Below, in pieces: positions 4,864 through 36,720 of a stretch of DNA of 64,000 nt. A program made the translations under genes and the position numbers. Positions within the stretch are counted from its first letter, which is position 1, and each line of letters starts with the position of its first letter. This DNA is from Aequorivita antarctica (GTDB lineage Bacteria > Bacteroidota > Bacteroidia > Flavobacteriales > Flavobacteriaceae): contig NZ_VORT01000005.1 in assembly GCF_007997155.1 (NCBI RefSeq), positions 186,001-250,000 on the forward strand. The letters run 5' to 3'. Below the pieces are notes generated by a model, which was not told the DNA's origin, made no database searches, and saw only the letters and a list, made by a program, of their open reading frames with translations.

Positions 4864-4887
4864 CGACCTTCCTTGAAAGTTAGGACT
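4864..4887 (-). promoter_or_regulatory. shared 24-bp promoter motif, copy A
   Basis: This copy begins CGACCT and ends GGACT on the plus strand; copies at 12720-12743 and 36033-36056 have exactly the same length and ends. In the direction of the serine hydrolase gene a TTTG -7-like element lies at 4839-4836, about 24 nt beyond the motif, close to the spacing of the other copies. It probably binds an activator that replaces the -33 contact. The regulator is not proven. Confidence 0.6.
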
Positions 4888-5127
4888 ATATTATCCGTTC
4901 TATTCTTCTTACGTTAAATTAGAATGAATGAAGATTATCGTCTTTCTTAATTTTATAAAACTTTAATTCTTGATTTCTTTGCCTTTGAAAGGGAAAAAAG
5001 AAATATCTTTTTAACATCTTTTTGAATATCTACTTTATAGAAATTGTCAAATCAAGATTGCAGTTGATAATTCATTGCATTTGGTTGAGAATAATTTTAT
5101 AAATTCTGATTATTTTATTCTCATAGA
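4888..5127. other. intergenic, AT-rich
   Basis: Together with the promoter region at 4745-4887 this makes more than 300 bases without a gene. Apart from the 24-bp motif, nothing is evident here: no ORF with coding character, no strong hairpin and no RNA gene. Confidence 0.5.
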
Positions 5128-5754
5128 TTAATTAAAATTATATCCAAAATGTACTCCTGGTTCTATTAGATGGAATTTATTCCATTTTCTATCTTTTTCA
5201 GCAAAATCTTCAGGAACGTTTGTATTTATAGGCCAAAATGTGCCAACTATGGCTGGTTCAATAAAGAACTTCTTTTTAAAAATTGGGATTTGATACCCCA
5301 ATCGTATAGTTGAGAAAAGTTGAAATCCACTTTGAATTTTATGGTTATATTCATTCGTGTATTTAGTTTTTACTGGCAATACACGTATGGAGGTAAATAG
5401 TCCTTTCCACAAGAAGTGTTGATAGACCGCTCCAACACCAAATACCTTTACATATCCCGGATATTCCTCCTCATCAGTGTTATAAAATTTACCCAATGGT
5501 ATACCCAAGGGTAAATAGTATTTCCATGTAATAGCTTCAATAGAAATAACATCCTTCTTGTTGATTCTATATCCTAAATTTAACTGGTAAAATGCGGGTG
5601 AATTGGTTATTGCTAAATTGCCCAACATAAAGGTTGAACTGCCAACATAGTATTTATAGGAACTTATGGAATCATTTTTTTTATCACTCTTAGCTATTAA
5701 GACTCCAAGCGTAAGGAAATTAATGATTAATGCTATGGCTAATTTTTTGAACAT
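5128..5754 (-). CDS. putative outer-membrane beta-barrel protein
   Basis: The N-terminus is a signal-like hydrophobic stretch. The rest shows alternating hydrophobic residues ending in aromatic positions (FYQLNLGYRI, LFSTIRLGYQIPI, PGVHFGYNF), with a C-terminal aromatic plus Asn as in small outer-membrane barrels. It has 208 residues and no named domain I recognise. A Crp/Fnr-like box lies 53 bp upstream of the ATG. The function is unknown. Confidence 0.55.
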   Translation of the reverse strand: MFKKLAIALIINFLTLGVLIAKSDKKNDSISSYKYYVGSSTFMLGNLAITNSPAFYQLNLGYRINKKDVISIEAITWKYYLPLGIPLGKFYNTDEEEYPGYVKVFGVGAVYQHFLWKGLFTSIRVLPVKTKYTNEYNHKIQSGFQLFSTIRLGYQIPIFKKKFFIEPAIVGTFWPINTNVPEDFAEKDRKWNKFHLIEPGVHFGYNFN

Positions 5755-5806
5755 TATGATCTTTAATTTTAATAAACAAATATTGTATAAAAAAAAATTC
5801 CATTTC

Positions 5807-5820
5807 TTAACTTAAATCAA
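5807..5820 (-). promoter_or_regulatory. Crp/Fnr-like box, copy 1
   Basis: TTAACTTAAATCAA here differs by one base from the box at 10821-10834. In the direction of the 5128-5754 gene, a near-consensus -7 element (AATATTTG, 5784-5777) follows. The box centre is 36.5 nt upstream of its final G, which places it near -41.5, the classic class II activator position. The same geometry recurs at the second copy. Confidence 0.45.
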
Positions 5821-5976
5821 AAAATAACGTTGGACTAAAAAAGATGGTCTTAAAAATTTGAACAAGAGAAATATTTAAATCTATTAATGCTTTTAAAAAT
5901 TATCATTATTTTACTACATTTTAAGGGAGTCAGAGTTGAACCAATTGATAAAATTAGAGTTAAAATACACTTCACT

Positions 5977-6966
5977 TTATTCTAATTCATTAACCATGTT
6001 TTTAATGGCATCTTCAATAACCGTTGGTTGGTCTTGATTTATATAATGTGAGCTATTGGGAACTAAAATTTGTTTGCTATTTGTTGATAACTTTAACATA
6101 TCGCGTTGCATTTTATTCCAAGCATTGACCATTTCAGTATTTAGGGTACTATCCTTTATGAATTGATCAAATCGGTTTTCATCTATGGCACTAAGTACAT
6201 AAAGAGGGGTATTACCAAAGTTTTTAATCTTTTTGGCCTCTTTTTTTATAAAGGAATCCTGTTTTCCCTCTTCTAGTATTCCATAAGCACTCTTATGAAG
6301 TAAGGCGGGCATTACTGTGTTTTGATATTCATATTCTTTTGTGTCTGGAAACATATCTTTATAAATCAATCTCGCAAGACCAACTGAATTTGCAAATTTT
6401 AGAAAACCTTCTGGCAGGCCTTGACTAACCATAGCGTATAACTCAGGAGATAAATAATCTTCATCATTCGGACATTCGCTATCTATAAGTATTATACCCG
6501 CCACTTCTTTAGGATATTGATCCATATAGAATCTAATAAGCATACCTCCTAGTGAATGGCCTACAAGTATGTAAGGCTTGGGTGCGTTGATTTTCTCAAG
6601 TAAGAGGTAAAGTTCTTCCGCCATTTTTTCTCCACTTTTTGGATTATTGCCTCTTTCACTCCATAAAATCCCTGCCCTATCATAAGAAATTGTTGTAGCA
6701 AATTTTGACACCTCATTTTGCAAATTGTGCCACTGCAAGTGTCCTGTAGGATCAAATGCCGCTTCAAAAACTATGGTTGGACCACTTTCTCCTTGTTTTA
6801 AATAATGTAGTTTATGACCACCAATATCTGCAAATTGACCATCAGGAATTATTTTTTCTCCCTTTAATCGAGAAACGTATTCGTAAATAACTCCAATTAT
6901 TAACATACTACACATTAGGATGAAAATTCCTAGAAGTATTTTCTTTATCCATTTTATTGCTTTCAT
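5977..6966 (-). CDS. membrane-anchored alpha/beta hydrolase
   Basis: An N-terminal transmembrane segment (ILLGIFILMCSMLIIGVIY) anchors a 300-residue hydrolase domain. Visible elements are the substrate-entry strand PTIVFEAA, SYDRAGIGWS-like SYDRAGILWS, the nucleophile elbow GHSLGG with Ser138, and the late His in NSSHYINQDQP. This order matches the alpha/beta hydrolase fold 1 family (esterases, epoxide hydrolases, lipases); the substrate is unknown. The active domain probably faces the periplasm. The gene stands alone and lacks the 24-bp motif found at the other hydrolase genes. Confidence 0.85.
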   Translation of the reverse strand: MKAIKWIKKILLGIFILMCSMLIIGVIYEYVSRLKGEKIIPDGQFADIGGHKLHYLKQGESGPTIVFEAAFDPTGHLQWHNLQNEVSKFATTISYDRAGILWSERGNNPKSGEKMAEELYLLLEKINAPKPYILVGHSLGGMLIRFYMDQYPKEVAGIILIDSECPNDEDYLSPELYAMVSQGLPEGFLKFANSVGLARLIYKDMFPDTKEYEYQNTVMPALLHKSAYGILEEGKQDSFIKKEAKKIKNFGNTPLYVLSAIDENRFDQFIKDSTLNTEMVNAWNKMQRDMLKLSTNSKQILVPNSSHYINQDQPTVIEDAIKNMVNELE

Positions 6967-7107
6967 TTTTATAATTTTCTGGTTTTATGATATAGGTCTT
7001 ATTTTGATTCTAAGAATATACTAAGTAGTAATTAATTTTTTTTAACTAATAAAAATAGTAGCCCCTATTCCCAAATAAATGCTTGAAAATAGAGGCTTAT
7101 TATTTTT

Positions 7108-7926
7108 CTATTGTACTGTATAAGTTCTGTTTTCTATTTCCCCCAATCTAAAATACCCTAGTGCATAATTGTCAGGATTTATTTCATTTTTTATATTTCC
7201 TTTTATTCTCACTGGGGGTAACCCAAAAGGTCCTCCACCAGTGGCATTTGCTATAAGGATACTCATATAAGTATAATAAGACCTCGAAATTCCGAAAATT
7301 GAAATGTCAATATTGCTTCCAACTTCTAAATCTTCATTAGAATAAAGCGCAGAGATTTTGTTACCCTCAAAAGCTTCATCATTCCATGTTTGGAACTCTG
7401 GGAAAGGACTAAAGGTTGTCTCGAACCGAGAAAGGAAAAAGTTTTCTTGCAAGGGGAAATCGTTAAAGTTCACTTTTATTCCAATTTGGTCATTATTAAG
7501 ACCAAGATCATTTCTTTGTTCGATATCTGTTATCTCTGGAGTGGCTAATAACATTTCAGTTGCAGAATAAGTTTGTTCTTCGTAGATAACTGTTAGAGTA
7601 TAAGTTTCACCAATAATTGGCACAAAATCATTACAAGTATATCTGCCTGAATTACTTGTAGGGCTCATTTCCTCAAGAAATGTGAAAGTCATATTTGAAC
7701 TATTGGTTATAAACACAGATGCCCCTGTTACTTTAGGAATAATATCTTGATAATATCCCGTAGATGTTGATAAATTTATAGTCTGGATATTTCCTGATGT
7801 CCCTTTTTCCCAATTTATATTAGCATCAATAACGAGTCTTGGGGCTTCTGTATCTAAATCAACATCAATAACGTCTTCACAACTAATAAAGAAAAATACA
7901 GAGAGTAATAATATGAGTTTTTTCAT
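7108..7926 (-). CDS. DUF4249 domain-containing lipoprotein
   Basis: MKKLILLLSVFFFISC is a lipoprotein signal peptide (Cys16), followed by EDVIDVDLDTEAPRLVIDANINW, the characteristic head of DUF4249 proteins. The length of 272 residues fits the family. It lies 4 nt downstream of the TonB-dependent receptor gene, the standard arrangement for this family, and is taken to be a surface lipoprotein working with the receptor, comparable in position to SusD. The ligand is unknown. Confidence 0.85.
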   Translation of the reverse strand: MKKLILLLSVFFFISCEDVIDVDLDTEAPRLVIDANINWEKGTSGNIQTINLSTSTGYYQDIIPKVTGASVFITNSSNMTFTFLEEMSPTSNSGRYTCNDFVPIIGETYTLTVIYEEQTYSATEMLLATPEITDIEQRNDLGLNNDQIGIKVNFNDFPLQENFFLSRFETTFSPFPEFQTWNDEAFEGNKISALYSNEDLEVGSNIDISIFGISRSYYTYMSILIANATGGGPFGLPPVRIKGNIKNEINPDNYALGYFRLGEIENRTYTVQ

Positions 7927-7930
7927 TTTT

Positions 7931-10300
7931 TTAAAATTTAAAGTTATATGTTATACTAGGAACCACACCGAATATTGAAAACTTTACGGCTTCGTTTTCC
8001 CCTGTATCTATATTTTGTCTAAAATCTATAGATGCGGCATTTTTTTGGTTATAAATATTATAGATGCCAAAGACCCATTCGCTTCTCCAACCTTCCGTTT
8101 TATTTGGTTTTGGAGTATAAGTTGCTGAAATATCCAGATGATGATAAGCTGGTAAATTATTCATATTTCTAGCCCCAAAGCTTGGAATTATAATACCTTG
8201 ATATTCATATTGTCCCTTAGGAAAAGTGGCGGCACGCCCAGATTGTAGGTTAAAAACAGATCCAAAACTCCATTTTTCACTTTTCTTGTAGGTTGCGGTG
8301 ATAGCCAAATTATGAAGTTTATCATATCCCGATTTGTACCAATTACCGTCATTTATTCCTGTTTCTGAAGCTGTTCTTCCTGGAGTTCTTTGTTCTGATC
8401 TAGAGAGTGTATATGCAACCCAACCTGTAAGTTTCCCGGAATTCTTTCGTAGCATCATTTCCAAACCATAAGAACGAACTTCACCATTTAAGACTACTTG
8501 TTCTATTGCGTCATTTCCAATCAGCTCAGCCCCATCAATATAATCTACTCTATTTTTGATTTTTTTATAAAATGTTTCTACTTCCAAAGAATAATTATCG
8601 TCACTGAAGTTTCTATAATAGCCCAGCGCAACCTGATCTAAAAATTGGGGTTTTAAAAATTCATCACTAGGTGCCCAAATATCCAGCGGGGTTGGAGATT
8701 GAGTGTTAGATATAAGGTGGAGGTATTGTACCATTCTATTATAACTAGCCTTAACTGATTGGTCGTCATTTAATGCATAAGAAACTGCAATTCGGGGTTC
8801 TAAGTTGTTGAAACTGGCAATTGTCTCATTTTTATCATAGCTTTTTACACCAATAGGATCAGCTTTTTCATAGATTTGAAACTCTGGATTAAAGACCACA
8901 GCCTGATTGTTTTGATAAATATTGATGTCTTGCTTACCCAGTCTATAAAATAGCCCGTATCGCAAGCCATAATTTACTTCAATTTTTTCAGAAAGTTTTT
9001 GCTCGGCCTCTATATAAATGGCGGGTTCAAAAGCATACTTTTTTGATAATTGTCTTGGGTTGACACCAGAGTTTTCTCCAAGGGGATTGATAGTTCCGGG
9101 ATTAAAAATATAATATTGCGCATTTATACCGTATGATAGCTTTGTAGCATTTCCAAAGTAATGCTTAAAGTCATATTTGAAATTAAAATTTTGTATGCCA
9201 CTGTCCCACTTAAATCCAAGGACTTCAAGTTCTAACCCATAATAATAATCACTGTAAATAAAAGAGGCATTAGAAAATAATTTGTCTGAAAATAGGTGGT
9301 TCCATCTAAGGTTAGCTGTGGTGTTACCATAGGTATTAGTAAAAATATTGCTAAGATTTAATAAGTCTCTACCAAAATACCCCGAGAGAAATAAGGTATT
9401 ATTTTCATCAAGTTTATAGTTAAATTTTGTATTTAAATCATAAAAGGATGCCGAATTTTTATTATCCGAAAGTTTAAGGAACAAATGGCCATATGAAGCC
9501 CTACCCGCTAACAAAAAAGATCCTCTTTCTTTTTGTAAAGGTCCTTCGGCCATCAATCTACTTGAAATGATTCCGATTCCTCCAGAGAAATTATATGTTT
9601 CATTATTGCCATCTTTTTGATAGATATCGAGAACTGAAGAGAGTCTGCCACCATATCTAGCTGGTATTCCCCCTTTGTATAATTTCATATCCTTAATTGC
9701 ATCAGAATTAAATACTGAAAAAAACCCAAATAAATGGGAAGCATTATAAATTGATGCCTCATCGAGAAGAATCAAATTTTGGTCTGCACTTCCTCCACGT
9801 ACATTGAAACCTGATTGACCTTCCCCGGCATTCGTTACCCCTGGAAGTTGAAGAATTGATTTAATTATATCAACTTCACCCAATACTACAGGCATTTGCT
9901 TGATTGTTTGGACAGAAAGCTTGTTTGAGCTCATCTCCGCTTTTTTAATGTCAGTTCTTTTCTTAGTTTCCGTTATTAGAACTTCATCCAGGCTTTCACT
10001 TTCTTCCAAAATGGAAATGTCTTTTTTGGTATTTTGGTTCAATGAAATACGCTCTGTATAAGGCTGGAAACCTAAGTACGATATATCAAGAGTGTAAACT
10101 CCCGTAGGAATTGTTAAGGAGTAAAACCCGTATTCGTTCGTGCTTGTACCAACTTCCAGCTCAGGTATATAGATATTTACTCCAATAAGTGTTTCAGTGG
10201 ACTTTCCATCTTTAATTGTACCACTTAGGGTATGTTTTTCCTGTGAAAGGGATATAAAAGAAACTAATAACAATGTTATCAGTAATAGTTTTATTTTCAT
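7931..10300 (-). CDS. TonB-dependent receptor with carboxypeptidase-like regulatory domain
   Basis: This outer-membrane receptor has 789 residues. After the signal peptide (ending near SLSQ) comes a CarboxypepD_reg-like domain at about 22-105 (HTLSGTIKDGKSTETLIGVNIYIP). The plug domain follows at about 120-240, including GGSADQNLILLDEASIYN and YKGGIPARYGGRLSSVLDI. The rest is a 22-strand-type barrel ending in SITYNFKF with a terminal Phe. It imports a substrate across the outer membrane using TonB energy. It is the first gene of a pair with the DUF4249 lipoprotein. Its proximal leader is partly duplicated 439 bp upstream (see repeats), and the better promoter lies with the distal copy. Confidence 0.93.
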   Translation of the reverse strand: MKIKLLLITLLLVSFISLSQEKHTLSGTIKDGKSTETLIGVNIYIPELEVGTSTNEYGFYSLTIPTGVYTLDISYLGFQPYTERISLNQNTKKDISILEESESLDEVLITETKKRTDIKKAEMSSNKLSVQTIKQMPVVLGEVDIIKSILQLPGVTNAGEGQSGFNVRGGSADQNLILLDEASIYNASHLFGFFSVFNSDAIKDMKLYKGGIPARYGGRLSSVLDIYQKDGNNETYNFSGGIGIISSRLMAEGPLQKERGSFLLAGRASYGHLFLKLSDNKNSASFYDLNTKFNYKLDENNTLFLSGYFGRDLLNLSNIFTNTYGNTTANLRWNHLFSDKLFSNASFIYSDYYYGLELEVLGFKWDSGIQNFNFKYDFKHYFGNATKLSYGINAQYYIFNPGTINPLGENSGVNPRQLSKKYAFEPAIYIEAEQKLSEKIEVNYGLRYGLFYRLGKQDINIYQNNQAVVFNPEFQIYEKADPIGVKSYDKNETIASFNNLEPRIAVSYALNDDQSVKASYNRMVQYLHLISNTQSPTPLDIWAPSDEFLKPQFLDQVALGYYRNFSDDNYSLEVETFYKKIKNRVDYIDGAELIGNDAIEQVVLNGEVRSYGLEMMLRKNSGKLTGWVAYTLSRSEQRTPGRTASETGINDGNWYKSGYDKLHNLAITATYKKSEKWSFGSVFNLQSGRAATFPKGQYEYQGIIIPSFGARNMNNLPAYHHLDISATYTPKPNKTEGWRSEWVFGIYNIYNQKNAASIDFRQNIDTGENEAVKFSIFGVVPSITYNFKF

Positions 10301-10340
10301 TTATTATGATTTTAAAAGGGTTAGTAAAATAAAAAAGGCT
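10289..10340. repeat. receptor start/leader repeat, proximal copy
   Basis: About 50 bp covering the receptor ATG and its leader recurs at 10728-10780 in the same orientation. Shared blocks include TTTTATTTTCATTTA and TTTTAAAAG followed by TTAGTA. The copies are imperfect, so the duplication is not recent. Confidence 0.6.
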
Positions 10341-10347
10341 ATGTTTT

Positions 10348-10605
10348 TCATAAAAGTGTTGTTTGATATTTTTTCATTCTAAGATTTAGTAGGAGCCAAA
10401 CTGATTCAAATTGTTTAAAATGTGGGCGAAAATAATGTGAAATAACCCGAATTTCTATACCTTCAAAATGGTATAATTTATTACCTAATAACAGGTATTT
10501 TTGGATTAATAGTTCTTGATGGAAGAGTAGCTCTTTTATAAAAAAACTTTCATATTTACCACAAGCTATTATATTAACAATGAACTCTGTGAACCAATAT
10601 TTCAT
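10348..10605 (-). CDS. small ORF of doubtful status, 85 aa
   Basis: This open frame lies between the two copies of the receptor leader repeat. Its product is rich in aromatic and basic residues (for example YHFEGIEIRVISHYFRPHFK) and has no family I recognise. It could be a fragment of an inserted element, which would explain why the receptor leader is separated into two copies. Coding status is uncertain. Confidence 0.25.
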   Translation of the reverse strand: MKYWFTEFIVNIIACGKYESFFIKELLFHQELLIQKYLLLGNKLYHFEGIEIRVISHYFRPHFKQFESVWLLLNLRMKKYQTTLL

Positions 10606-10727
10606 GCTTCAGTGAACGAAAGCCTATTGGCTTTTTTTTTTTGATTTCATATAAGCTGCAATTAAAGTCTATTTGGAATTATCACTTTTTGAGAGAGTGC
10701 AGATGATTTTCTCTTTTTCCTTATCAC

Positions 10728-10780
10728 TTTTATTTTCATTTAATAAAATTTTAAAAGATTAGTATAATTATAAAAGGGGC
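10728..10780. repeat. receptor start/leader repeat, distal copy
   Basis: This copy includes a relic start codon (minus strand 10739-10737) followed by codons for MKIKV, like the receptor start MKIKL, after which similarity is lost. It carries the stronger promoter of the two copies. Confidence 0.6.
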
Positions 10781-10820
10781 ATTTGGGTGCAAAAATATTT
10801 ATGCCTTTTGTAGTAACTCC

Positions 10821-10834
10821 TTAACTTAAGTCAA
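10821..10834 (-). promoter_or_regulatory. Crp/Fnr-like box, copy 2
   Basis: TTAACTTAAGTCAA is a near-palindrome of the TTNAC-N4-GTNAA type. The -7 element TATTTTTG (10797-10790) lies downstream in the receptor direction. The box centre is 37.5 nt from its last G, within 1 nt of the spacing seen at 5807-5820. Confidence 0.45.
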
Positions 10835-10995
10835 GAAAGAGCACAAATAATCGACACTTTTTTCCGTCTTAACACTTAGAAATTAAATTTACACCCTGCT
10901 TTAGTACCTGAAAATTTAGACAGATGCTGCTAATCAAACAATCAAATTTTTGATATCTTTAGTTTTATGCCCCTTAAGAGATTCTAGGTTATTCT

Positions 10996-11670
10996 TTATA
11001 TAAATTTTCGAACATATCCTAGTTTTAGATAGTAAGGCACGAAATTATTCGTTTTAAAATCTTGTTCAATGTTTCTACCAACGTTTAGGTTTAGGTCGTT
11101 GTTTCCAAAAGAATAACTTGATTGTAAACCATAGAAGAAATTGCCTCCTGTCGGGATATACCAGCCGTCCTTAATGGAAGGATTATACTCTTTCATCCGA
11201 TCCCCGTGTTTTACATGGGTGACAATCGCCTTATCAAAGCCAAACTCACCAGCTACGTGCCAATTTGGTTTATAATAACCAGATACTGCAGTGAATTCAC
11301 TTCCAAAATTGAGAAGCCTTGCATTTTCACTCCCGTACCGTCTAAAGACGCCATAGACCTTAGCTGTTGTAGAAAAATCTCCAATACTTAGTACTTCAAC
11401 TTGACCACCTAATTTTGACTTAAGGTCATCAAAAGGTTTATTGCCAAATGGGAGGGATAAGTCCGCGTTTAAAACAATAGGTAATTTTGTGTTTAATTGA
11501 TAACCATAGCCAAATGTGAGAGTTGTACTATAGTCCAAGCCTATATTCATACTAACCAAATGCTTTTGTTCTTTAGATAAACTTTTCCAATTAATGTTTT
11601 GGGAAAAAAGGTTTAAAGAGGCTGAAAAAAGCAATACAACCAATAATTTTGATTTCATCATTTTGTGCAT
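10996..11670 (-). CDS. putative outer-membrane beta-barrel protein, 224 aa
   Basis: A signal peptide (KSKLLVVLLFSASLNLFSQ) is followed by repeated amphipathic strands such as TLTFGYGYQLNT, STTAKVYGVFRRYG and WHVAGEFGFDKAIVTHV, ending YYLKLGYVRKFI with an aromatic near the C-terminus. This fits a small outer-membrane barrel; no named family is recognised. The gene lies 7 nt downstream of the lipoprotein hydrolase gene (11678-12670) in the same direction, so the two are probably one operon driven from the 24-bp-motif promoter. That link suggests a role related to the hydrolase product. Confidence 0.6.
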   Translation of the reverse strand: MHKMMKSKLLVVLLFSASLNLFSQNINWKSLSKEQKHLVSMNIGLDYSTTLTFGYGYQLNTKLPIVLNADLSLPFGNKPFDDLKSKLGGQVEVLSIGDFSTTAKVYGVFRRYGSENARLLNFGSEFTAVSGYYKPNWHVAGEFGFDKAIVTHVKHGDRMKEYNPSIKDGWYIPTGGNFFYGLQSSYSFGNNDLNLNVGRNIEQDFKTNNFVPYYLKLGYVRKFI

Positions 11671-11677
11671 TTTTTTT

Positions 11678-12670
11678 TTAATTAAGAGCGTTAAGATATT
11701 CTAGAACTTTAGGGTAAACATTATCCCATTTGAAATAGATCATTTCATGTCCAGTTCCATCAATTCTTTGAATTTCGGAATTAGGAAAATAATTGGCCTC
11801 TTTTTGGGCAAAGGACAAACCATAGGATTTGTTGTTTTGACCGTATAACAGTAAAACCTTTGTTGTGTATTGATTTAAATTTTTAGTAAAATCAAATTTG
11901 TCCTTCTCAGCTAAATCACCAAGACTGTTTAGAACAACAGCTCCATTTCTCCAGAAAGGAGATGGGCCTTCAATACCTTCATCATTATCTTCTGCATAAG
12001 TAAATGAGGATAGGACAGCTAGTTTGTAATCCAGTACTTCATGTTGATTCTCAGTACCAGTAAAAAATTGATCTAGGTATAGTGCATCATTAGTTACTTC
12101 TGAAAAGAGTGAAAGCCTTCTACTATTTTCTTGATAATCTTTTAGATCATCATAATTCATACCTCCAGCTTCAGCCAAAATTACCCCCGAAATTCTTTCT
12201 GGATATGAATTTATATAGGAAGTGGCTAAAATTGCCCCCCAAGAATGACCGAAAAGGAAGACCTTTTGATCCGGCGAAGTTTTATAATATTCAATAACGG
12301 CTGTAAGATCATCTCTTGTTTGCTGAATACTAAAGCTATTCTTATTGTGCCGTTTGGAGAGACCGGCACTTCTTTGGTCAAAGAAAACAACATAATATCC
12401 ATCATCAGCCAATTGTTTAACATTTAAACCGTTGCGGTAGTCACCACCTGGCCCCCCGTGCAAGAACACGAGCATTGAATTATTTGGATTTCCAAATGTT
12501 TCACTATGAAGCATAGTGCCGTTTACTTCAATTGACGGCAATGATGGATCCTGTTCAACAGTTTTTGGAACTAACGCACCAGGTTCGTCAGGGTCAATTT
12601 CTGTACAAGAAATTTGTGAGCTAATAACTAATAAGAGAGAAGCTCTAAATAAAAAAGATTTAATTTTCAT
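11678..12670 (-). CDS. alpha/beta hydrolase lipoprotein, proline iminopeptidase-like (S33)
   Basis: The signal peptide ends in ISSQISC with a lipidation Cys at residue 22. The hydrolase domain shows the S33 signature HGGPGG (71-76), the loop DQRSAGLS (98-105), the nucleophile elbow GHSWGA with Ser143, and a late GTGHE with the probable catalytic His. Proline iminopeptidases remove N-terminal residues from peptides; lipoprotein export suggests it processes peptides in the periplasm or at the surface. It is preceded by two copies of the 24-bp motif and then by the AraC regulator gene in the same orientation, and followed closely by an outer-membrane protein gene. Confidence 0.87.
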   Translation of the reverse strand: MKIKSFLFRASLLLVISSQISCTEIDPDEPGALVPKTVEQDPSLPSIEVNGTMLHSETFGNPNNSMLVFLHGGPGGDYRNGLNVKQLADDGYYVVFFDQRSAGLSKRHNKNSFSIQQTRDDLTAVIEYYKTSPDQKVFLFGHSWGAILATSYINSYPERISGVILAEAGGMNYDDLKDYQENSRRLSLFSEVTNDALYLDQFFTGTENQHEVLDYKLAVLSSFTYAEDNDEGIEGPSPFWRNGAVVLNSLGDLAEKDKFDFTKNLNQYTTKVLLLYGQNNKSYGLSFAQKEANYFPNSEIQRIDGTGHEMIYFKWDNVYPKVLEYLNALN

Positions 12671-12719
12671 GATTATTAATTTTGTTTCGGCAAAGATTTG
12701 TCAAACCCGAATTAATAAT

Positions 12720-12743
12720 CGACCTAACTTATAGGAAGGGACT
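12720..12743 (-). promoter_or_regulatory. shared 24-bp promoter motif, copy B1
   Basis: The ends CGACCT and GGACT match copies A and C. In gene direction the motif is followed after 21 nt by AATCTTTG (12698-12691), a -7-like element. Copy C has exactly the same spacing and the same eight bases. The hydrolase ATG is at 12670. Confidence 0.65.
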
Positions 12744-12760
12744 AGTATTAAATTAAATAT

Positions 12761-12784
12761 AGCCCTTCCTTATAGGCAAAGACT
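12761..12784 (-). promoter_or_regulatory. shared 24-bp motif, upstream copy B2
   Basis: This is a second, weaker copy in the same orientation as B1, offset by 41 bp, about four helical turns. It keeps CCT near one end, CTTATAGG in the middle and GACT at the other end. Tandem sites on one helical face suit an AraC-type dimer or two dimers. Confidence 0.5.
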
Positions 12785-12818
12785 TTAAAAAAAAAGAATA
12801 AATACTTACACAAGAATC

Positions 12819-13967
12819 TTATTCCAAAGACTTTAGGTATTCCGATGGTGTAGAGTCGGTGACTTTTTTAAAATACTTATTAAAGGAGGATTTAGAGTTA
12901 AACCCGCTGTCAAAAGCTAATGATAAAATAGTGAATTTTCTATTTTCGGAATTGGAGGACAGTTTGATAAAATGTTCAATTCTTTTAGAATTGACATAAT
13001 CATAGAAGTTTTTATTTTCGAAAGTATTAATGACTTGCGATAAATTATTTGGGTGTACGTCTAATACCTGTGCTAACTCATTTAAGGTTAGTTCAGGATT
13101 AATATAGAGTTTTTCTTCATCCATTCTTTGAGAAAGCAACCCATGAATTTCCATTGCGGTTTCATTGGTTAGTCCCGATTTCTCATATTTTGATGTTTGA
13201 ATAATTAGACTGTTGCCCTCGTCAGGAATGCTTAAGCTAGGGTGGTCAATATCTGGAAGCTGTAATATTTCATTTTGCTGCGAAGCCAAAGGAATGGTAA
13301 TACGTTTTGTAAAAATGCCTTCCTGTCTGATGCCAAAATAGCCAATAAAAATCATAAAAAGCACAACAATGGTATAGATTTGATTGTCATTGGTAGCAAA
13401 TAAAACAACAAACCAGATAACTGACATACCAATTATTAAGTACTGCAACCAGTCGAGATTGATTTTTTCGGTATTTGAAAACTCATTTTTGAGCTTTTTC
13501 TTATAGGCTCTTAATCTCAGGAAAGAAAGAATAGTGTAGAATATTCCTGAAAAGATTATTAATGCCGAGTTAATAATTAAGATATTTTCATAGCCAACAC
13601 CTCCAGTTTTATATACCGATATTTTCTCGTCAGAAGAAAGTAGAAAGAAATCGAAAAATAGGGCAAATGAAATTATAATAGGTAAAAAATGGATTAAATG
13701 AATTTTTCTAATTTCTTTCTTTTTGGTTAGTGATGTCGTATAAAGATATAATAAAGGTCCATGATAAAGTGGGAGTTGAAAAATTAACCCAAGTAGAAAT
13801 GGGTATTCTGTATCCAACTGCGAAATAAATAAATAGAAAAGGAACAGGTTTAAGGAAAGGGCAATCATCCACACAAAGAGTATGTAATCTGCTTGTGTTT
13901 TTCTTTTTTTTGTCAACAATAAAGCAGAAAGAAATAGGCCAATAACAATACCAGAAAAATATAACAT
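12819..13967 (-). CDS. AraC-family regulator with seven-helix membrane domain
   Basis: The protein has 382 residues. The first 215 contain seven hydrophobic helices (from LYFSGIVIGLFLSALLL to IYTIVVLFMIFIGYFGI). After a linker comes an AraC-type DNA-binding domain at about 275-382: LTLNELAQVLDVHPNNLSQVIN is the first helix-turn-helix, and FTILSLAFDSGFNSKSSFNKYFKK followed by TPSEYLK is the second plus signature. Such Bacteroidota regulators are thought to sense a signal at the membrane. It lies directly upstream of the S33 lipoprotein gene, with two 24-bp motifs in between, so it is the obvious candidate to bind them. That pairing is inference. Confidence 0.85.
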   Translation of the reverse strand: MLYFSGIVIGLFLSALLLTKKRKTQADYILFVWMIALSLNLFLFYLFISQLDTEYPFLLGLIFQLPLYHGPLLYLYTTSLTKKKEIRKIHLIHFLPIIISFALFFDFFLLSSDEKISVYKTGGVGYENILIINSALIIFSGIFYTILSFLRLRAYKKKLKNEFSNTEKINLDWLQYLIIGMSVIWFVVLFATNDNQIYTIVVLFMIFIGYFGIRQEGIFTKRITIPLASQQNEILQLPDIDHPSLSIPDEGNSLIIQTSKYEKSGLTNETAMEIHGLLSQRMDEEKLYINPELTLNELAQVLDVHPNNLSQVINTFENKNFYDYVNSKRIEHFIKLSSNSENRKFTILSLAFDSGFNSKSSFNKYFKKVTDSTPSEYLKSLE

Positions 13968-17727: not shown

Positions 17728-17737
17728 CTGTTCAAGA

Positions 17738-28838: not shown

Positions 28839-28863
28839 TTTTATTAGGTTAATTTTTACAATT

Positions 28864-28896
28864 AAAAGACCTTGGAATTTTTTCCAGGGTCTTTTT
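28864..28896 (+). terminator. rho-independent terminator after the HYR gene
   Basis: AAAAGACCTTGG (28864-28875) pairs with CCAGGGTCTTTT (28884-28895) around an 8-nt T-rich loop and is followed by Ts. It lies 25 nt after the stop. Confidence 0.85.
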
Positions 28897-29125
28897 CAAA
28901 TATACTTACTTATAAAATATGCGATTGAGTCTTGATTATTTCAGAAAGATAAGTGTTATTTCCTTTCAGCTTTATGGTGGGGGTGGATACGGAAAGTTTT
29001 TGATTGGTAAATCTATTCAAGCTTTCAAACCTTTGAAGTTTTTGCAAAATATCCTCTTCGACCGATGTAGGAATGGATTACTGTTTATCGTGCCCTTAAA
29101 TCCGATAAATTTTGTTGTGAATAAT

Positions 29126-30766
29126 TTGAAGCATTTTAAATTATTTAGTTTTTTGATGCTTTGTGGTTTTACTCAAGCACAAACTATCGAAGAATGCGAC
29201 AAAATTTTTGTAGAAGCTATTTCGGAAATGAACCAAAAGAACCATACCCGTTCATTGGAATTACTAACCGAAGTCAAAACTATGGCGATAAATAATGCTT
29301 GGCAAAAACAACTTTTTTTAGCCTTCAATAATCTCGGTGCAAATTATTACCTCATGCTCGATTATGGCGAAGCACTTGATAATTACTTGGAAGCCTACAA
29401 AATTGCTTTGAAAGGACTCGATGCCAAATACGAAATGTCTGTTCTCAATAACATAGCAATACTTTACTCAAAAGAACAAAAGTTTGAGAAAGCTGAAGAA
29501 TATTTTTTGAAGGCCTACCATATTGCTAAGAAGAATCAAGACAGTCTCAAAATTGGCTTGTATGCAACCAATTTAGCGACGGTTGCCAGCCAAAAAAGTG
29601 AAATAGAAAAAGCAGATCAATATATTAAGATAGCAATTCCCTTACTTAAAAATGTTCCCCCAATTCTCGATCAGGCTAAAATCACCTATGTCCATACTCT
29701 TATTCTAAAAAAAGATTTTGATGAGGCAAAGAGAATAGCTTTGCAATTGCTAACAACACTAAATACTCCCGAACTGAGTGAACATCGAATTTCCTTGTTG
29801 ATGAACATTTCTGATATATATAAGTATGAGGGAAACCAAAAATTGGCTATTGATTATGCGATGCGCGCCGGAAATGATTCCAATTCAAACATTGAAAATA
29901 AAATTGATGTTTACAACCAACTTAGTGAACTTTACCGCACAGAGAATAAAAGCTCTTTGGCATTTATTTATAAAGATTCTGTTATCTGGGCAAAAGACTC
30001 TTTAAATCAAATCAAAAACGGAAGACTTTTTGAAAACAGCCGCGTCAAATTCGAATTGCAAAATTACGAGAAGGAGCTCAGAGAAAGCCAGAAAATATTG
30101 AAGGCTGAAAGAAACTTGTTTTACAGTATTATCGGTGGAATCATCCTCTTAATATTGATTTCATTTTGGGCAATCTGGAATTATTCAGTTAAATTAAGAC
30201 AACGAAAAATAATCTCCGAAAGAAATTATAAGATAGCTGGACTCGAGGTTGAAAAACAAAAAAAAGACAAGATTTTGTTGATACAACACCTCAGAGAAAT
30301 GGAAGTTTTAAATCTTTTTAAACAAGAAAAATTAAAAAGTGAAATAGATTCTAAAAATCGTGAACTTACCTCTAAAGTAGTTTCAATCTCCACAAGAAAC
30401 GAATTAATTGAAAATATTATAGATTCGCTTACAAATTCCGCCGAAATCTCAAAAAATGAATTTTTGAATCGAAGAATTTTTGAATTAAAAAATCATTTAA
30501 AAAAAGACTCACAAGAGGATAACTTTTTCACTCACTTTGAAAGAGTAAATCCTTCAGCTTTAAAATCTTTAAAAGAAAAACACTCTGATTTAACATCAAA
30601 TGACCTCAGGTATCTTTCTTATATATATATGAATTTATCAACCAAAGAAATATCTTCTTTATTAAATATAACGGTTGTGGCTTGTAGAAAGAGAAAAGAA
30701 CGTATACTTAAAAAAATGAATTTACCAGAATATTCCGACTTGTATAACTACATATCAGATATTTAG
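29126..30766 (+). CDS. TPR-containing LuxR-type transcriptional regulator
   Basis: I start this at TTG 29126, which gives MKHFKLFSFLMLCGFTQAQ, a good signal peptide. The longer frame from ATG 28919 adds 69 residues without domain character. TPR units cover about residues 30-310 (counting from 29126), including AFNNLGANYYLMLDYGEALDNYLEAYKIA. A transmembrane helix (FYSIIGGIILLILISFWAIW) leads into a coiled coil and a C-terminal LuxR-like helix-turn-helix (LTSNDLRYLSYIYMNLSTKE then ISSLLNITVVACRKRKERIL). Such proteins sense signals in the periplasm and control transcription across the membrane. It sits between two T9SS surface-protein genes and may regulate them. Confidence 0.78.
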   Translation: MKHFKLFSFLMLCGFTQAQTIEECDKIFVEAISEMNQKNHTRSLELLTEVKTMAINNAWQKQLFLAFNNLGANYYLMLDYGEALDNYLEAYKIALKGLDAKYEMSVLNNIAILYSKEQKFEKAEEYFLKAYHIAKKNQDSLKIGLYATNLATVASQKSEIEKADQYIKIAIPLLKNVPPILDQAKITYVHTLILKKDFDEAKRIALQLLTTLNTPELSEHRISLLMNISDIYKYEGNQKLAIDYAMRAGNDSNSNIENKIDVYNQLSELYRTENKSSLAFIYKDSVIWAKDSLNQIKNGRLFENSRVKFELQNYEKELRESQKILKAERNLFYSIIGGIILLILISFWAIWNYSVKLRQRKIISERNYKIAGLEVEKQKKDKILLIQHLREMEVLNLFKQEKLKSEIDSKNRELTSKVVSISTRNELIENIIDSLTNSAEISKNEFLNRRIFELKNHLKKDSQEDNFFTHFERVNPSALKSLKEKHSDLTSNDLRYLSYIYMNLSTKEISSLLNITVVACRKRKERILKKMNLPEYSDLYNYISDI

Positions 30767-30878
30767 CTGCAAGGTCACGCTTTTTGCCATTTATTGTCTC
30801 GCTTATTATTTAGTTATTTCAAGAATTTTGAAATAAAGGTTTGAATTTGCGCTTGAATTAATTATAAATATACAGATT

Positions 30879-33179
30879 ATGAAAAAATTTACGCTTTTGG
30901 TCATTATTTTTTTAGGTTCTTATTCTTATCTATTTTCGCAGTTTCAAGTGATTGGGTCAAGCGAGTATGGTAGAATTTTTAATTTGACTTACGATAAAAA
31001 TGTTGAAGACAGAGTTTATGCAATTACCCAAGGTAATCATATTATCTTTTCAAATGACAACGGTTTCACATGGGATATACTTTACGCGCACCCAGAGGGA
31101 GAATTAGATGACTTAAAATTTATTTCTTCTGAAAATGCATTGAGCTTTGTTACAAAAAACACAGAAAATTACGGACTTTATATATATGATTTAGACTCTG
31201 GTGCAATAACAAAGAGTTTTTATGTTCCAGAACAGGGAGATAGAGAACGGATTAAGGCTTATTCAATCTGGGAAGGAGATACGGATGTTGCGTTAGTTAT
31301 TCAAGACTATAAAATTGATTTCTTTAGTTATTCCAAAGTACATTATACAATCGATGGAGGTGAAAATTGGACAGAAGTATACTATTCCAACGATAACTTG
31401 GATTATTTTCCAGAAAACGTGGCTATTAGTCCTGATAATCAAGAAAAACTCTTTATAGCGAGAGGTATTAGTTTTCAAGATTCTGCAGGAGGGTTATTGA
31501 TTTCAGAGGATGGAGGGCAAACCTGGACTGAAAAATTGACTGGAATCTGTTTCAAACCTATCACTTTCTATCCCGAAAACCCTCAGGAGATTTGGTTAGG
31601 GTCAGGAATTGGTTATGGAAATGATCATTCAGAGGGTCTATATAAATCGATTGATGGAGGAGAAACGTGGAATTTAATTTCTATTCCTTGGACTCCTTAT
31701 ATAGGGGACAATATTAGTGTAATTGAGATAAATCCGTCTAATCTTAATAATATTATTGTATTAGAAGAGAACGAAATAGCAATCTCTAATGACGGGGGTG
31801 AAAACTGGGACTTATTTATACATCCTGACGTTGATAATAATGTTGAGGGATATTTTTCTGGAAGAAATGCTTCCTTCAATCCATTTAATGAAAATGAAAT
31901 TTTTATTAACTCGACTTTTTTTCCACTATTTTCTACTAATAAGGGAGTAGATTTAGAAAGGCTAAAGACTTCCTTCTTTAAAGAACAGGGTAATTTGAAA
32001 TATTTTAATAAAAATGGAGCTGAACATTTATATTATGGGGTTCAATATGGTTTTGTTCACAAGAATTTACAAAATATGGAAGAAGACGCCTATAATCTTA
32101 CTCCACTAAACTCCCAATCTTTTACTCCAAATACTGTGCTCCATATTGATAAAAATATTGAAGGAAGGGTTTATGTTTTTTCCCCGCCATTTGATCTAAA
32201 AGTAAGTGAAAATCATGGTGAAGACCAAAATATTATTTACACCGTAGCTAACAAGAATGAATTTAATGCAGTTTCTACACTTCCGAATAATCAAAATATA
32301 ATTTATGTGTCATTTTCCTTCAACGGAGACATAGCTGAAATTAAAAAAATTGATTTTACAAATATAAATTCGCCCCAAATCACCAATATTACTGTGCCAC
32401 AAATTAATGGGAGAGTGATGAATATTCACCTCGACCCCACTAACTCAAATAGTATTTTGATATCTCAGGGAGGTAGAATCTTTAAATCCTTCGATGGAGG
32501 AAGTTCTTGGATTAATAGTAGTATTGGGCTCGAAGTATTAAATGAAGAATCAGACCTGATTATAAAATTAATTCAAAATTCTTCAAATCAACAGAATTTT
32601 ACTATTGCAACATCAAAAGGGATTTTCCAATCTTTTGATAGTGGAGAAACGTGGGGGCAAATCTATAATTCTTTTTCAAACAACATAGCCTATTCTGAAG
32701 AGGGAATTATTGCGACCACAAGCAATCCCGATGGCACACATCTTGAAATAATATATTCACAAAATAATGGACAAACTTGGGAAAACATTGAAGGCGGATC
32801 ATTCACTCCAATTAATCTATCTCATGTATTTTCTTCTACCGATTTTCATTTTCATGAGAATTTTGCCGACATTTATTTGGGAACATCTGGGTTGGGCGTC
32901 TTAAAATACATATTGGACTTGACTACATTGAAAATCATAGATGTTGATCTCATCGGAAAAAAATCAACAGCTATTTATCCAAATCCTACAAACGACTGGG
33001 TAAATATTCAAAGCAAAGAAGAAATTAAGTCAATTGAAATATATAACCTTGCTGGACAAAAAATTATAACAAATACCTCCACCAGAACTAATGTGTCATA
33101 TTTGAATAAAGGAATTTATCTCGTAAAAATCCTTTTAATGGATGGACGAACAGAAGTCCATAAATTGATTAAGAATTAA
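30879..33179 (+). CDS. BNR/Asp-box repeat protein with T9SS sorting domain
   Basis: A signal peptide (LLVIIFLGSYSYLFSQ) is followed by a predicted beta-propeller with at least eight Asp-box motifs of the S-x-D-x-G-x-T-W type. Examples are SNDNGFTW, TIDGGENW, SEDGGQTW, SIDGGETW, SNDGGENW, SFDGGSSW and SFDSGETW. From about residue 695 a type A T9SS domain is present (STAIYPNPTNDWVNI, then GIYLVKILLMDGR). Asp-boxes occur in sialidases and in sortilin-like or photosystem assembly propellers; no sialidase active-site residues were identified, so an enzymatic role is not claimed. Confidence 0.82.
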   Translation: MKKFTLLVIIFLGSYSYLFSQFQVIGSSEYGRIFNLTYDKNVEDRVYAITQGNHIIFSNDNGFTWDILYAHPEGELDDLKFISSENALSFVTKNTENYGLYIYDLDSGAITKSFYVPEQGDRERIKAYSIWEGDTDVALVIQDYKIDFFSYSKVHYTIDGGENWTEVYYSNDNLDYFPENVAISPDNQEKLFIARGISFQDSAGGLLISEDGGQTWTEKLTGICFKPITFYPENPQEIWLGSGIGYGNDHSEGLYKSIDGGETWNLISIPWTPYIGDNISVIEINPSNLNNIIVLEENEIAISNDGGENWDLFIHPDVDNNVEGYFSGRNASFNPFNENEIFINSTFFPLFSTNKGVDLERLKTSFFKEQGNLKYFNKNGAEHLYYGVQYGFVHKNLQNMEEDAYNLTPLNSQSFTPNTVLHIDKNIEGRVYVFSPPFDLKVSENHGEDQNIIYTVANKNEFNAVSTLPNNQNIIYVSFSFNGDIAEIKKIDFTNINSPQITNITVPQINGRVMNIHLDPTNSNSILISQGGRIFKSFDGGSSWINSSIGLEVLNEESDLIIKLIQNSSNQQNFTIATSKGIFQSFDSGETWGQIYNSFSNNIAYSEEGIIATTSNPDGTHLEIIYSQNNGQTWENIEGGSFTPINLSHVFSSTDFHFHENFADIYLGTSGLGVLKYILDLTTLKIIDVDLIGKKSTAIYPNPTNDWVNIQSKEEIKSIEIYNLAGQKIITNTSTRTNVSYLNKGIYLVKILLMDGRTEVHKLIKN

Positions 33180-33331
33180 AACAAAATCATAAAAGATTTT
33201 CAAATTTCTGAAGGCTTTTTAAATTTTGCAATACCTTTTTCATAAAGTTGCTATTTTTGTATGAAGAGAGGATAAAGGGCAAAGAGCCGCGTTAGAGATT
33301 TGAAATTAGAAAAAAAGGGGACACTCTTAGC

Positions 33332-33366
33332 AAAAGACCTTGGGATTTTCCAGGGTCTTTTTTTTA
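33332..33366 (+). terminator. rho-independent terminator
   Basis: AAAAGACCTTGG (33332-33343) pairs with CCAGGGTCTTTT (33350-33361) and is followed by a T run. The stem is the same as at 28864. It lies 150 nt after the BNR gene stop. Confidence 0.8.
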
Positions 33367-33470
33367 AATAGACTTTTAGGATTAATCCTCATCTAGCTAA
33401 GGACTAATTATCCATCTTTGAAGTTAAATCAACATTGAATTCTTTAAAGAATCAACTGCAGTTTTATAAT

Positions 33471-34045
33471 CCATTCAGCACTTTCCCCTACACTTCGCAA
33501 AAACTTCATTTCGGTAAAAGAGCTTCACTGCAAAGGTCTTGGACACCGTCCCCAATTTCTGCTTTCCATTCCACTGACCCGATCCGCTACGCCGGAACGG
33601 AACGCCCCATTCCAATCCGAAATTGTGAACGGAGTCCGCCCGTTCAGAACTTATTTTTTTCTTTTGTTACCCTTCTCTGGATTTAGAAATTCACATACGC
33701 CCTTTAGAAACCTACCGTAGCGCCACTGTCCCTGCCTTTTTTGGTAAGCAAAATACCATCATTTGGAAGTTGAATGGAATGCATAACTGGTCGTATCCTT
33801 CGACCAGGCTCAGGGCGGGCCTCCCTTTTATAAGTCCTTGTCAATTCCAAATATTGAAAAATGTATCAGTTACAAGAAAGGATAATAGCGACGGTCTTTA
33901 GATTTGTTCTATAGATTAAATCTATTATGATGATGAGATTGAAAAGAAGGGGCTATTTTAATGGGCAACGAACCCTAACATTTAATATTCTGCTATCAAT
34001 AAAAGTGGAAAATAAAACGCTCTGGATATAATAAGTCAATCGTTT
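33471..34045 (+). repeat. element leader repeat, copy 1 (degenerate)
   Basis: This copy matches 36721-37252 in the same orientation. Shared exact runs include CATTCCACTGACCCGATCCG, GAACGGAGTCCGCCCGTTC, TCCCTTTTATAAGTCCTT and AACGCTCTGGATATAATAAG. The hairpin GAACGG/CCGTTC (33627-33645) is preserved. The copy has an extra piece of about 25 bp at 33793-33818 and a disrupted version of the small ORF, and no ssb gene follows it. Confidence 0.75.
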
Positions 34046-34519
34046 TAATTGGAACAGAAATCAATCTTCAAGACTTTAACTATTCTGTGAGTAAAAAAAA
34101 TAATACTACTAAAAATTTAAAATGACTAACTATAGATTTCAAGTATTTGAATAGTACAAATTTTATTGACCTACCTTTCTCATAAGCTTGCAAATCTTTG
34201 GTAATAAAAAACTACAAAATAGCCGTTATAGTTTAATTGTTTAACATTAAGTGCATTTTTGTAATTAGCACCTGAACTTCCTAGTGAAAACAAGATCATT
34301 TATTTATTGGGAATTTCCAAATATTTCTATTTATAACAAAGTATCATTAACAGAAATAGAGGGCAAAATTGAGTCTTGGTCACCTTTTTGAATACTAAAG
34401 CTCCTGGTTCATGTGGGTTAAATTTTCAGTACAAGATAGTATGCCAAACACAAATAATAGTGTTATCTTTAATGGAGAAGTTCTTAATTTCATATTTTTA
34501 AACTGAGGTTTTTTTAAAT

Positions 34520-35986
34520 TTACATTAACAATCCCATTATGAAAATTTGGGATTTACTAAATTTCATTATAGGCTTAAAATCTATTGAAGCAGGTGTGGT
34601 TATAGAATCTTTGTTAATTATACCATTATCAAAATAATCAGATAAAAAATTCGGGGTCATCATCGTTTTAATGAAAATATCAGAATGCGACATATTTTTC
34701 AGAATAATTTGATGTCCATTTTTTAGATATGGCATCAACTCATCTCTTGCATTGTCTGATGGTGTAGAAACATCAAGGTCACCACTTATTATCAAAGTTT
34801 CTGCTGAAGTTTCTCTACATTTTCTATATTCTTCAGGTATTGTTTTGATTTGCCAAGCACTTGAAACTCCCCAATATAATTTGGAAATGTTTCCCCCTAA
34901 AATTGTATTATCTCCTTGAAGTTTTTTTCTGTAATTTGTTCCTTCTACAAAATCTGCATTAACTGCTTTCGATGATATTTCGCCAAATACAATTTCAGAG
35001 CTTGCCATATCCACCATTTTTTGCATTAAATATAAATAGCTGTAGTCGTAATTATTTGCCGCTCTATTATAGGCCTCAAAAACAAGACCTGCCATATCTT
35101 TTGAAAAAAGGGAAGTAAAGGTTCCAACTTTAATTTTGTCAGCATCTAGTTTGAAAACCGACCACCTTTTAGGCATATTATCAAAGGATTTTTTCATAAT
35201 TTCTTTAATAGAACCTTTGTAGTCAACTTCATCTTGATTTTTATATAAACTATCGTACTTGTTAAGAATACTTTCTGTTTTTTCGGGATTCCAAATAAAA
35301 TGCCCAGGAGGATTTGCTCCAATCATTACTGTTCTATTGATAACTTCGGGAAATTTATAACTATATAATAACGCAACTCTTGTACCATAGCTCACTGACA
35401 ATAGGTTTATCTTTTTATAGCCTTGATGTTTTCTAACAATTTCTAAATCCTCAATAACATCAAGCATTGTGTAATTATTTAAGTCAATATTTTGTTCTTT
35501 AAGTTGCGCTTGATATTCTTTTATTTTCTCTTCAACATTATTCAATGATTGCTCACTTAACAATTGATTGTGTTTGCCTTTTAATGCCTTATTTACTTTT
35601 TTTGACTTTAAAATAGTCGAACCGTCAACTCCTCTATAACCAATACAAACTAAATCGTGATTAGCTAATAGTTTTGAAGGGTTGGCGGATATTATTTTAC
35701 TTTCTAAAAGAATATTGGATGCTCCTGGACCTCCATCTAACCAAAAAATAGGTTCAGTCGGATTTTTGCTTGAGGATTTTACAATAAATACAGGTAATTG
35801 AATTTTTTTTGAATTTAGGCTTTTATAATCTTCTGGAACTTCAATAGTGCCTCTAAATGTTGAATAATTTGTATTTTCAATTACAATATCTTCACTAGAT
35901 AAAATTTCTATTTGTTTTTTTTCTTGTGCTAATATAATAATTGAGGTAAATAGCCCTATGGCTAAAAGAATTGTTGATTTTCCCAT
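34520..35986 (-). CDS. secreted alpha/beta hydrolase, S33 / tripeptidyl aminopeptidase-like
   Basis: The protein has 488 residues and a signal peptide (ILLAIGLFTSIIILAQ). It shows the S33 features: GGPGAS (85-90) for the oxyanion hole, GYRGVDGS, the nucleophile elbow SVSYGT with Ser199, then GDLDVSTP with the likely Asp and MSHSD with the likely His. Members trim N-terminal peptides from substrates outside the cytoplasm. The promoter carries copy C of the 24-bp motif, so it is probably co-regulated with the genes at 3656 and 11678, and is host rather than element DNA. It is flanked by the two leader repeats. Confidence 0.85.
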   Translation of the reverse strand: MGKSTILLAIGLFTSIIILAQEKKQIEILSSEDIVIENTNYSTFRGTIEVPEDYKSLNSKKIQLPVFIVKSSSKNPTEPIFWLDGGPGASNILLESKIISANPSKLLANHDLVCIGYRGVDGSTILKSKKVNKALKGKHNQLLSEQSLNNVEEKIKEYQAQLKEQNIDLNNYTMLDVIEDLEIVRKHQGYKKINLLSVSYGTRVALLYSYKFPEVINRTVMIGANPPGHFIWNPEKTESILNKYDSLYKNQDEVDYKGSIKEIMKKSFDNMPKRWSVFKLDADKIKVGTFTSLFSKDMAGLVFEAYNRAANNYDYSYLYLMQKMVDMASSEIVFGEISSKAVNADFVEGTNYRKKLQGDNTILGGNISKLYWGVSSAWQIKTIPEEYRKCRETSAETLIISGDLDVSTPSDNARDELMPYLKNGHQIILKNMSHSDIFIKTMMTPNFLSDYFDNGIINKDSITTPASIDFKPIMKFSKSQIFIMGLLM

Positions 35987-36720
35987 TGTCTTAAATGTTT
36001 TTACAAAGATTCATCAAACAAAAACAATTAATCGACCTTGCGTGAAAGTAGGGACTTATTGTAATTTTTGAACATTGAAAATCAATAATTTAAAATAACA
36101 CGGAATTTGTAAAATTAAGAAATATGTCTTTTGTTTAACTCATTTAATTATTCGATTGTGTCTGATTCGTTGCTTTTTTATGTATTTATTAAATGAAAAT
36201 TTTTGAATTGAAGCCACATCCAATATCATGACCGTTGACTGATTGAATTTGAAATGCTCCAGCAATTTCAAATTAGTATCGAGGTGTCCCGGTTTTAAAG
36301 TTCGAACCATTATCTAGGCCACCTCCCCATACTTAAGATTCAGCATAATTTATAAATGAATAGCCTACACTTAAAGTTATTACTACGGACAACCATTTTA
36401 CCAAAATGAAAGTCTAAAAAAATAGAACTTAAATTAAGTGTTAGATGAAGAATTCAATAAAAAACAATTCTAATTGTATTATATCATTATTTGTTTATCT
36501 TTTTTAATGATTTGTACTTTAAAGTCATTTGAAAAGGGTTATTTGATTTAACCGATAAAACTGGATTTCTTCACATTCTAACCTATAGAGCACTGGTATA
36601 CTTCTTTTTTTGGAACACTTCTAATAAGTGGAAATTAGGTTTCTTTGAAAGTTTAGATCCACACTATACCAATTAATATTTCGGGTTAAATCCTACAAAC
36701 TTATAATATACAGAATTTAT
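35987..36720. other. intergenic; hydrolase promoter and probable element boundary zone
   Basis: About 730 AT-rich bases without a gene. It holds the promoter of the S33 hydrolase, including the 24-bp motif. The edge of the conjugative element should fall between here and 36720; no attachment-site repeat could be identified by eye. Confidence 0.45.
36033..36056 (-). promoter_or_regulatory. shared 24-bp promoter motif, copy C
   Basis: The ends CGACCT and GGACT match copies A and B1, and 15 of 24 columns are invariant among the three. In gene direction 21 nt separate it from AATCTTTG (36011-36004), exactly as at B1. The ATG is at 35986. Confidence 0.65.

Follow-up and report, generated by a model that had tools for sequence, protein, structure and literature searches.

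In a 64,000-nucleotide stretch of the Aequorivita antarctica genome (contig NZ_VORT01000005.1, positions 186,001 to 250,000; hereafter the window), three operons beginning with genes for exported hydrolases are each preceded by a similar 24-bp site, raising the question of what reads these sites and whether one regulator serves all three operons. An earlier note on this DNA had proposed that the sites are placed over the -35 region to be bound by an activator, the AraC-domain protein encoded at 12819-13967. We consider it probable, though well short of certain, that this protein, a predicted seven-transmembrane-helix (7TM) AraC regulator, activates the three exported-hydrolase operons via three operators. 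Comparative support for the activator site and its reader is strong but indirect, and activation itself we infer from the geometry of the promoters.

The three sites are present as noted and 15 of their 24 columns, counted by eye, are identical. They read best (AGTCC...AGGTCG) in the direction of the three hydrolase genes, all of which lie on the minus strand. Operator 1 (AGTCCTAACTTTCAAGGAAGGTCG, 4864-4887) lies upstream of the gene at 3656-4744, operator 2 (AGTCCCTTCCTATAAGTTAGGTCG) occupies 12720-12743 and operator 3 (AGTCCCTACTTTCACGCAAGGTCG) occupies 36033-36056. At operators 2 and 3 exactly 21 nt separate the site from a -7 box read from the sequence as AATCTTTG (12691-12698 and 36004-36011, respectively, both minus strand), equivalent to 25 nt between the terminal CG of the operator and TTTG. 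At operator 1, TTTG (4836-4839) is found within 1 nt of the same place, 24 nt after the CG instead of 25 nt, as part of the candidate -7 box GAAATTTG (4836-4843, minus strand). TAnnTTTG is described as the sigma-A -7 box of Bacteroidota (PMC9723704); the first T of this element is not kept in any of the three window boxes. With 24, 25 and 25 nt to TTTG, the operator position relative to the -7 box fits class II activator geometry. The right half AGGTCG is the same in all three sites, whereas foreign loci most often carry GGGGCG; AGGTCG itself does occur abroad, for example in loci L009, L084 and L145.

All three sites are followed by hydrolase genes whose products appear to be exported as judged by eye from their N-termini, one being a PF00144 protein and two alpha/beta hydrolases. 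The first (3656-4744, minus strand) encodes a serine hydrolase of the beta-lactamase/penicillin-binding type (PF00144, E 2.3e-34) with an export-type N-terminus, MKSLLNLFFGFVFLSSQGQ, the start at 4744 having been chosen by eye. The second (11678-12670, minus strand) encodes a proline-iminopeptidase-like alpha/beta hydrolase with a lipoprotein-like N-terminus, a frequent partner of this AraC type. It is followed in the same operon by 10996-11670 (minus strand), which has no Pfam or NCBIfam match but a homologue in 20 loci and whose product is probably exported, perhaps to the outer membrane. The third (34520-35986, minus strand) is an alpha/beta hydrolase by domain match.

The element recurs behind araC homologues in other genomes. 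A first set of homologues of the window AraC from relatives gave 58 loci, nine of which were dropped by an open-reading-frame (ORF) rule; CG was found exactly 24 nt before a TTTG downstream of araC in 23 of the remaining 49, which include the window's own locus with its 25 nt spacing. In a second set of named genomes, comprising the best 80 of 578 confirmed stretches, 43 loci had CG-N24-TTTG within 300 nt after araC. Across the other CG-TTTG spacings from 10 to 59 the mean count in these 80 loci was 5.9 and the maximum 14, and 200 dinucleotide shuffles gave a mean of 5.88 and a maximum of 14. With [GA]G.CG in place of CG, 31 of 80 loci have the 24 nt spacing, and no other spacing between 18 and 31 exceeds 4 of 80. 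In the same 80 loci, the divergent side of the gene carried CG-N24-TTTG in 5 cases. Combining the second set with 35 first-set loci, the window excluded, yielded 115 araC loci, 60 of them with the exact CG-N24-TTTG. Sites with at least 4 of 6 hallmark bases were kept (54 loci; 6 dropped), and their consensus is GTnCCAcCTTaCAagtTgGGgCG, followed by 24 nt and TTTG. The A of TAnnTTTG, a column free of selection, is present in 48 of the 54 kept loci. The element is often found close behind the araC stop codon. The same 24 nt spacing was also scored beside long, putatively TolB-like AraC proteins of at least 560 aa (L012-L015, L017-L020, L022, L023 and L025): CG stands 24 nt before a downstream TTTG in 7 of these 11 loci, with different arms, which hints at a general AraC promoter or activation rule in the phylum.

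Within the A. antarctica genome the three sites stand out. The core AGTCC-N13-AGGTCG has three exact matches in 3,844,651 bases, one at each window site, while the backwards control has one. Looser patterns return counts at noise level: with two mismatches allowed, 9 matches lie in the window where 4.63 are expected (3 of 100 shuffles reach 9), and two loosened whole-genome patterns give 22 matches against 38 in the control (a pattern shifted by one column relative to site 2, counted there as one mismatch) and 97 against 84. The genome was searched by patterns, so that sites outside them would be missed. Because these patterns derive from the window sites themselves or from relatives, the independent test is a scoring matrix from other genomes, which we built from 49 distinct foreign sites with no window site included. 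This matrix ranks operators 2, 3 and 1 first, second and third in the window (25.2, 22.7 and 22.0); the next score is 16.0 and the best in 20 random first-order windows 15.6. When all 97 loose genome matches were scored, the only one above 20 outside the window (L164, 21.6) was rejected as a further site since it lies antisense within an ORF and without TTTG at 20-29 nt. The next best outside the window, L175 (18.2) and L176 (17.9), likewise have no TTTG at 20-29 nt. The three-site observation is thus correct and not a product of chance. As looser genome patterns stay at control level, the three sites form a strong set with no larger regulon visible by pattern. Random matches across the genome, named in the earlier note as grounds for abandoning its proposal, were sought in part, and the whole-genome patterns gave no further convincing site.

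In structure the operator is an imperfect inverted repeat of 23 bp whose arms co-vary, and it adjoins the -33 region. For 52 distinct sites, base complementarity in excess of that between shuffled partners peaks at a single axis, lying between the 12th and 11th positions ahead of the final G, with a summed excess of 1.07 and two pairs at z 6.5 and 3.6; the next axis reaches 0.25. Inverted symmetry with co-varying arms suggests that the regulator binds as a symmetric dimer. Several loci possess a second upstream copy of the operator, scoring above 8 when the last two columns of the matrix are left off. In the 54 kept loci this copy lies 42-43 bp upstream in 8, 31 bp in 5 and 76 bp in 2, and between 35 and 59 bp none is seen except at 42-43 bp. 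The weaker tandem copy described in the earlier note is indeed present at 12761-12784 (minus strand), 41 bp upstream of operator 2, although its score of 10.6, ninth in the window, falls within the chance range when taken alone. Taken together, these offsets indicate that near-whole helix turns are favored. The loci with a second operator at 42-43 bp (L009, L011, L077, L144, L154, L155, L157 and L160) have mostly DUF6448-like partners, and genes further on at L011 resemble heavy-metal genes by eye.

The regulator itself (12819-13967, minus strand) is 382 aa long and shows seven long predicted helices (residues 2-213), a linker and a C-terminal AraC double helix-turn-helix (HTH; residues 268-381). 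The latter places it in the AraC/XylS family, with matches to PF12833 (E 1.6e-13, residues 298-379) and PF00165 (E 2.4e-8, residues 342-379), and profile comparison aligns it with solved AraC-type chains including 3oou, 6swi, yesN, ToxT and others. The domain search returned HTH matches only, with no kinase or receiver domain, and no 7TMR family (7TMR-DISM) or DISMED match was found in Pfam at E 0.001. The prediction is thus of a membrane domain with seven helices joined to an AraC DNA-binding domain. The listed Foldseek matches of the membrane domain are full of G-protein-coupled receptors (GPCRs); we do not claim GPCR kinship, as helical bundles can reach comparable Z. The genome contains five AraC matches, of which only 12819-13967 is full-length while the other four are confined to the HTH. 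In a tree of 66 AraC proteins the window AraC is sister to a Flavobacterium lotistagni AraC encoded beside a 34520-type gene (support 97/98), and the operator of this sister has AGGTCG and 25 nt spacing like window sites 2 and 3. Since AGGTCG is identical, the spacing is maintained and the genome has no second full-length homologue, we infer that the 12819-13967 product controls sites 1 and 3 in trans.

Partner genes are swapped between such loci, and each of the three window hydrolase types is found elsewhere directly behind a regulator of this kind. Homologues of 11678-12670 (43-67% identical) are the gene after the operator in 19 of the collected araC loci, 15 of which have the exact 24 nt, two 25 nt, one a good site with TTTA and one (L082) a weak match. 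In F. lotistagni (L084) the gene behind araC is homologous to 34520-35986 (48% over 481 aa), and the operator there scores 24.2 at 25 nt. The same genome contains a second araC-hydrolase cassette with a weaker site (14.1, 24 nt), and each cassette has an AraC of its own. Three Dyadobacter loci (L091, L099 and L106) also have the site. The gene after the L091 operator belongs to PF00144, the family of 3656-4744, and the L099 and L106 genes begin like it when sequence starts are compared; blastp of the 3656 product against the Dyadobacter partners gave no match at 0.001. Among 299 genomes of the family, the own genome included, 3656 homologues occur in 4 and 34520 homologues in 1, numbers too small for footprinting of these genes across the family. 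Further partners identified by scanning include DUF2306, DUF6448, Rce1-like, acyltransferase, CarboxypepD_reg and polyketide-cyclase-like proteins as examples, with others assigned by eye. Many partner genes look like envelope proteins, which suggests that the signal may be an envelope-directed compound or peptide. The window encodes one more alpha/beta hydrolase (5977-6966) with a 59% identical homologue in Epilithonimonas (L093, 5571-6551) located within an AraC/DUF2306 cassette; no high-scoring operator before 5977-6966 was listed in the window matrix scan.

The surroundings of site 3 suggest how a third operator may have come under the same regulator. The stretch upstream (36101-36320, minus strand), interrupted by stop codons, is probably a decayed araC 3' end. 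Compared at the DNA level with araC ends, it has a mean alignment score of 37.2 whereas 100 shuffles reach at most 31.3, and 28 control stretches compared in the same way have means up to 30.5 among the eight listed. Its best single score of 65 is unexceptional, with one shuffle reaching 65 and a control 61, and tblastn of the remnant gave a non-significant E of 0.006 that was matched by the reversed control (0.006). The 34520 cassette is flanked by diverged direct copies at 33463-34048 and 36716-37252 (ca. 540-590 bp, 81-93% identical in pieces, ca. 3.2 kb apart). Beyond these lie an ORF resembling a single-stranded-DNA-binding protein by eye (37321-37674) and a DUF5712 protein (39145-40173), and together copies and neighbors possibly mark the edge of an integrated element.

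In the mechanism we propose, the seven-helix membrane domain would sense a signal in the membrane or periplasm while the cytoplasmic AraC domain would bind, as a dimer, the 23-bp imperfect inverted repeat ending at the -33 region. From this position, with 24-25 nt between the repeat and the TTTG of a sigma-A -7 box, the bound regulator would replace a poor -33 element and would contact and recruit RNA polymerase. The operons switched on in this way would be 3656, 11678-10996 and 34520. The third probably once had its own araC, the decay of which would have left operator 3 to the surviving regulator.

Several observations weigh against a single activator reading all three sites or against a general form of the rule. 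The exact CG-N24-TTTG is lacking in 55 of 115 araC loci, and 41 of these 55 have no site scoring at least 14; the other 14 do, with variants that include 25 nt spacing (L084 and L087) and TTTA in place of TTTG (L093, L098 and L125). Three foreign 3656 homologues in genomes of the family have no site. A single pair with z above 3 is likewise seen about another axis (sum 32), and the partner shuffle leaves relatedness in, the other axes serving as control. Co-evolution of the HTH is weak both with the operator (rho 0.249) and with the spacer (rho 0.167) and is not used as support. When six genomes (five Flavobacterium and G176, a member of the same family) were searched for the operator next to araC with up to three mismatches, each returned that operator alone, implying that several targets in trans are not the usual state. 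This last point lends itself to the most serious alternative, in our view unlikely but deserving weight, in which the intact AraC reads site 2 only and sites 1 and 3 are leftovers of lost araC-hydrolase cassettes, now orphan or constitutive. The probable decayed araC adjoining site 3 is consistent with this, as is the presence of an own AraC in both F. lotistagni cassettes. However, AGGTCG is identical in the three sites where the commonest foreign sequence is GGGGCG, as if kept for one protein, and site 3 (22.7) shows no decay.

The regulator could also act in the opposite sense, the inverted repeat at the -33 region blocking polymerase until a signal releases it. Palindromes are common repressor sites, and a site adjoining the core promoter suits repressors and class II activators equally. 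AraC-domain proteins are however mostly activators, and the exact 24 nt spacing in 43 of 80 loci suggests polymerase contact, which steric repression does not need, making this option improbable. If the motif were instead a core element read by an alternative sigma factor, its fixed distance to the -7 box would be accounted for, but this is very improbable, given that this box is the ordinary sigma-A TAnnTTTG (PMC9723704) and that the motif is tied to araC loci, has co-varying arms and is represented by three exact cores in the genome. Least probable of all is an RNA hairpin, for example an araC terminator: co-varying arms and a position often soon after the araC stop codon would fit, yet site 1 has no araC in front, no T run directly follows any of the three window sites and a terminator would not have to keep a set distance from the promoter that follows.

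Activation of the three operons by one regulator can be placed in a wider picture, which we advance tentatively and rate at somewhat below even. Bacteroidota may share one-component receptors in which a GPCR-like seven-helix domain is fused to AraC, many of them reading a 22-23-bp inverted repeat with its edge exactly 24 nt before the -7 TTTG. This genome would then capture a regulon in the course of growing, with one regulator now in charge of three regulator-hydrolase cassettes that used to be separate, a sister araC having decayed. Since the arms vary but not the spacing, it should be possible to read the family's targets from sequence. To our knowledge, many AraC proteins of Bacteroidota have no target, signal or promoter rule assigned to them. 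If true, a constant 24 nt between operator edge and TTTG would turn many such regulators into testable predictions with operons named and would provide a design rule for inducible promoters in Bacteroidota. A seven-helix domain fused straight to a DNA-binding domain would represent an unusually short signaling path, and its signal could be sought with a simple reporter.

AraC activators, class II geometry and membrane-bound AraC proteins near hydrolases are already known. A 7TM-AraC family, an inverted-repeat operator of this kind and the 24-nt rule were not found among the matches listed in the literature searched, subscription papers lying outside the search. Saccharophagus degradans, a gammaproteobacterium and not a member of the Bacteroidota, offers one likeness by description. 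There, 16 of 31 AraC-type regulators are membrane-bound, several lie near hydrolytic enzymes, and a role in sensing extracellular polysaccharides has been suggested (PMC2386152). The consulted portion of that study contains no operator, promoter spacing or seven-helix description (PMC2386152). Like the Bacteroides hybrid two-component systems (HTCS), the window regulator combines a predicted membrane sensor and an AraC HTH in one chain and probably controls neighboring genes; unlike them, it has no kinase or receiver match. HTCS motifs are described as direct repeats of 12-16-bp sites with 5-9-bp spacers (PMC3878776). For the operator reported here, the scoring covered inverted-repeat models, and one such axis stands out. 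With AraC/XylS activators at class II promoters such as MarA, SoxS and AraC the regulator shares the C-terminal double HTH. MarA and SoxS sites lie at the edge of the -35/-33 region, as do the operators described here. The regulator differs from MarA, SoxS and AraC in its predicted seven-helix sensor, in an imperfect inverted-repeat operator with co-varying arms and in a promoter of the Bacteroidota type.

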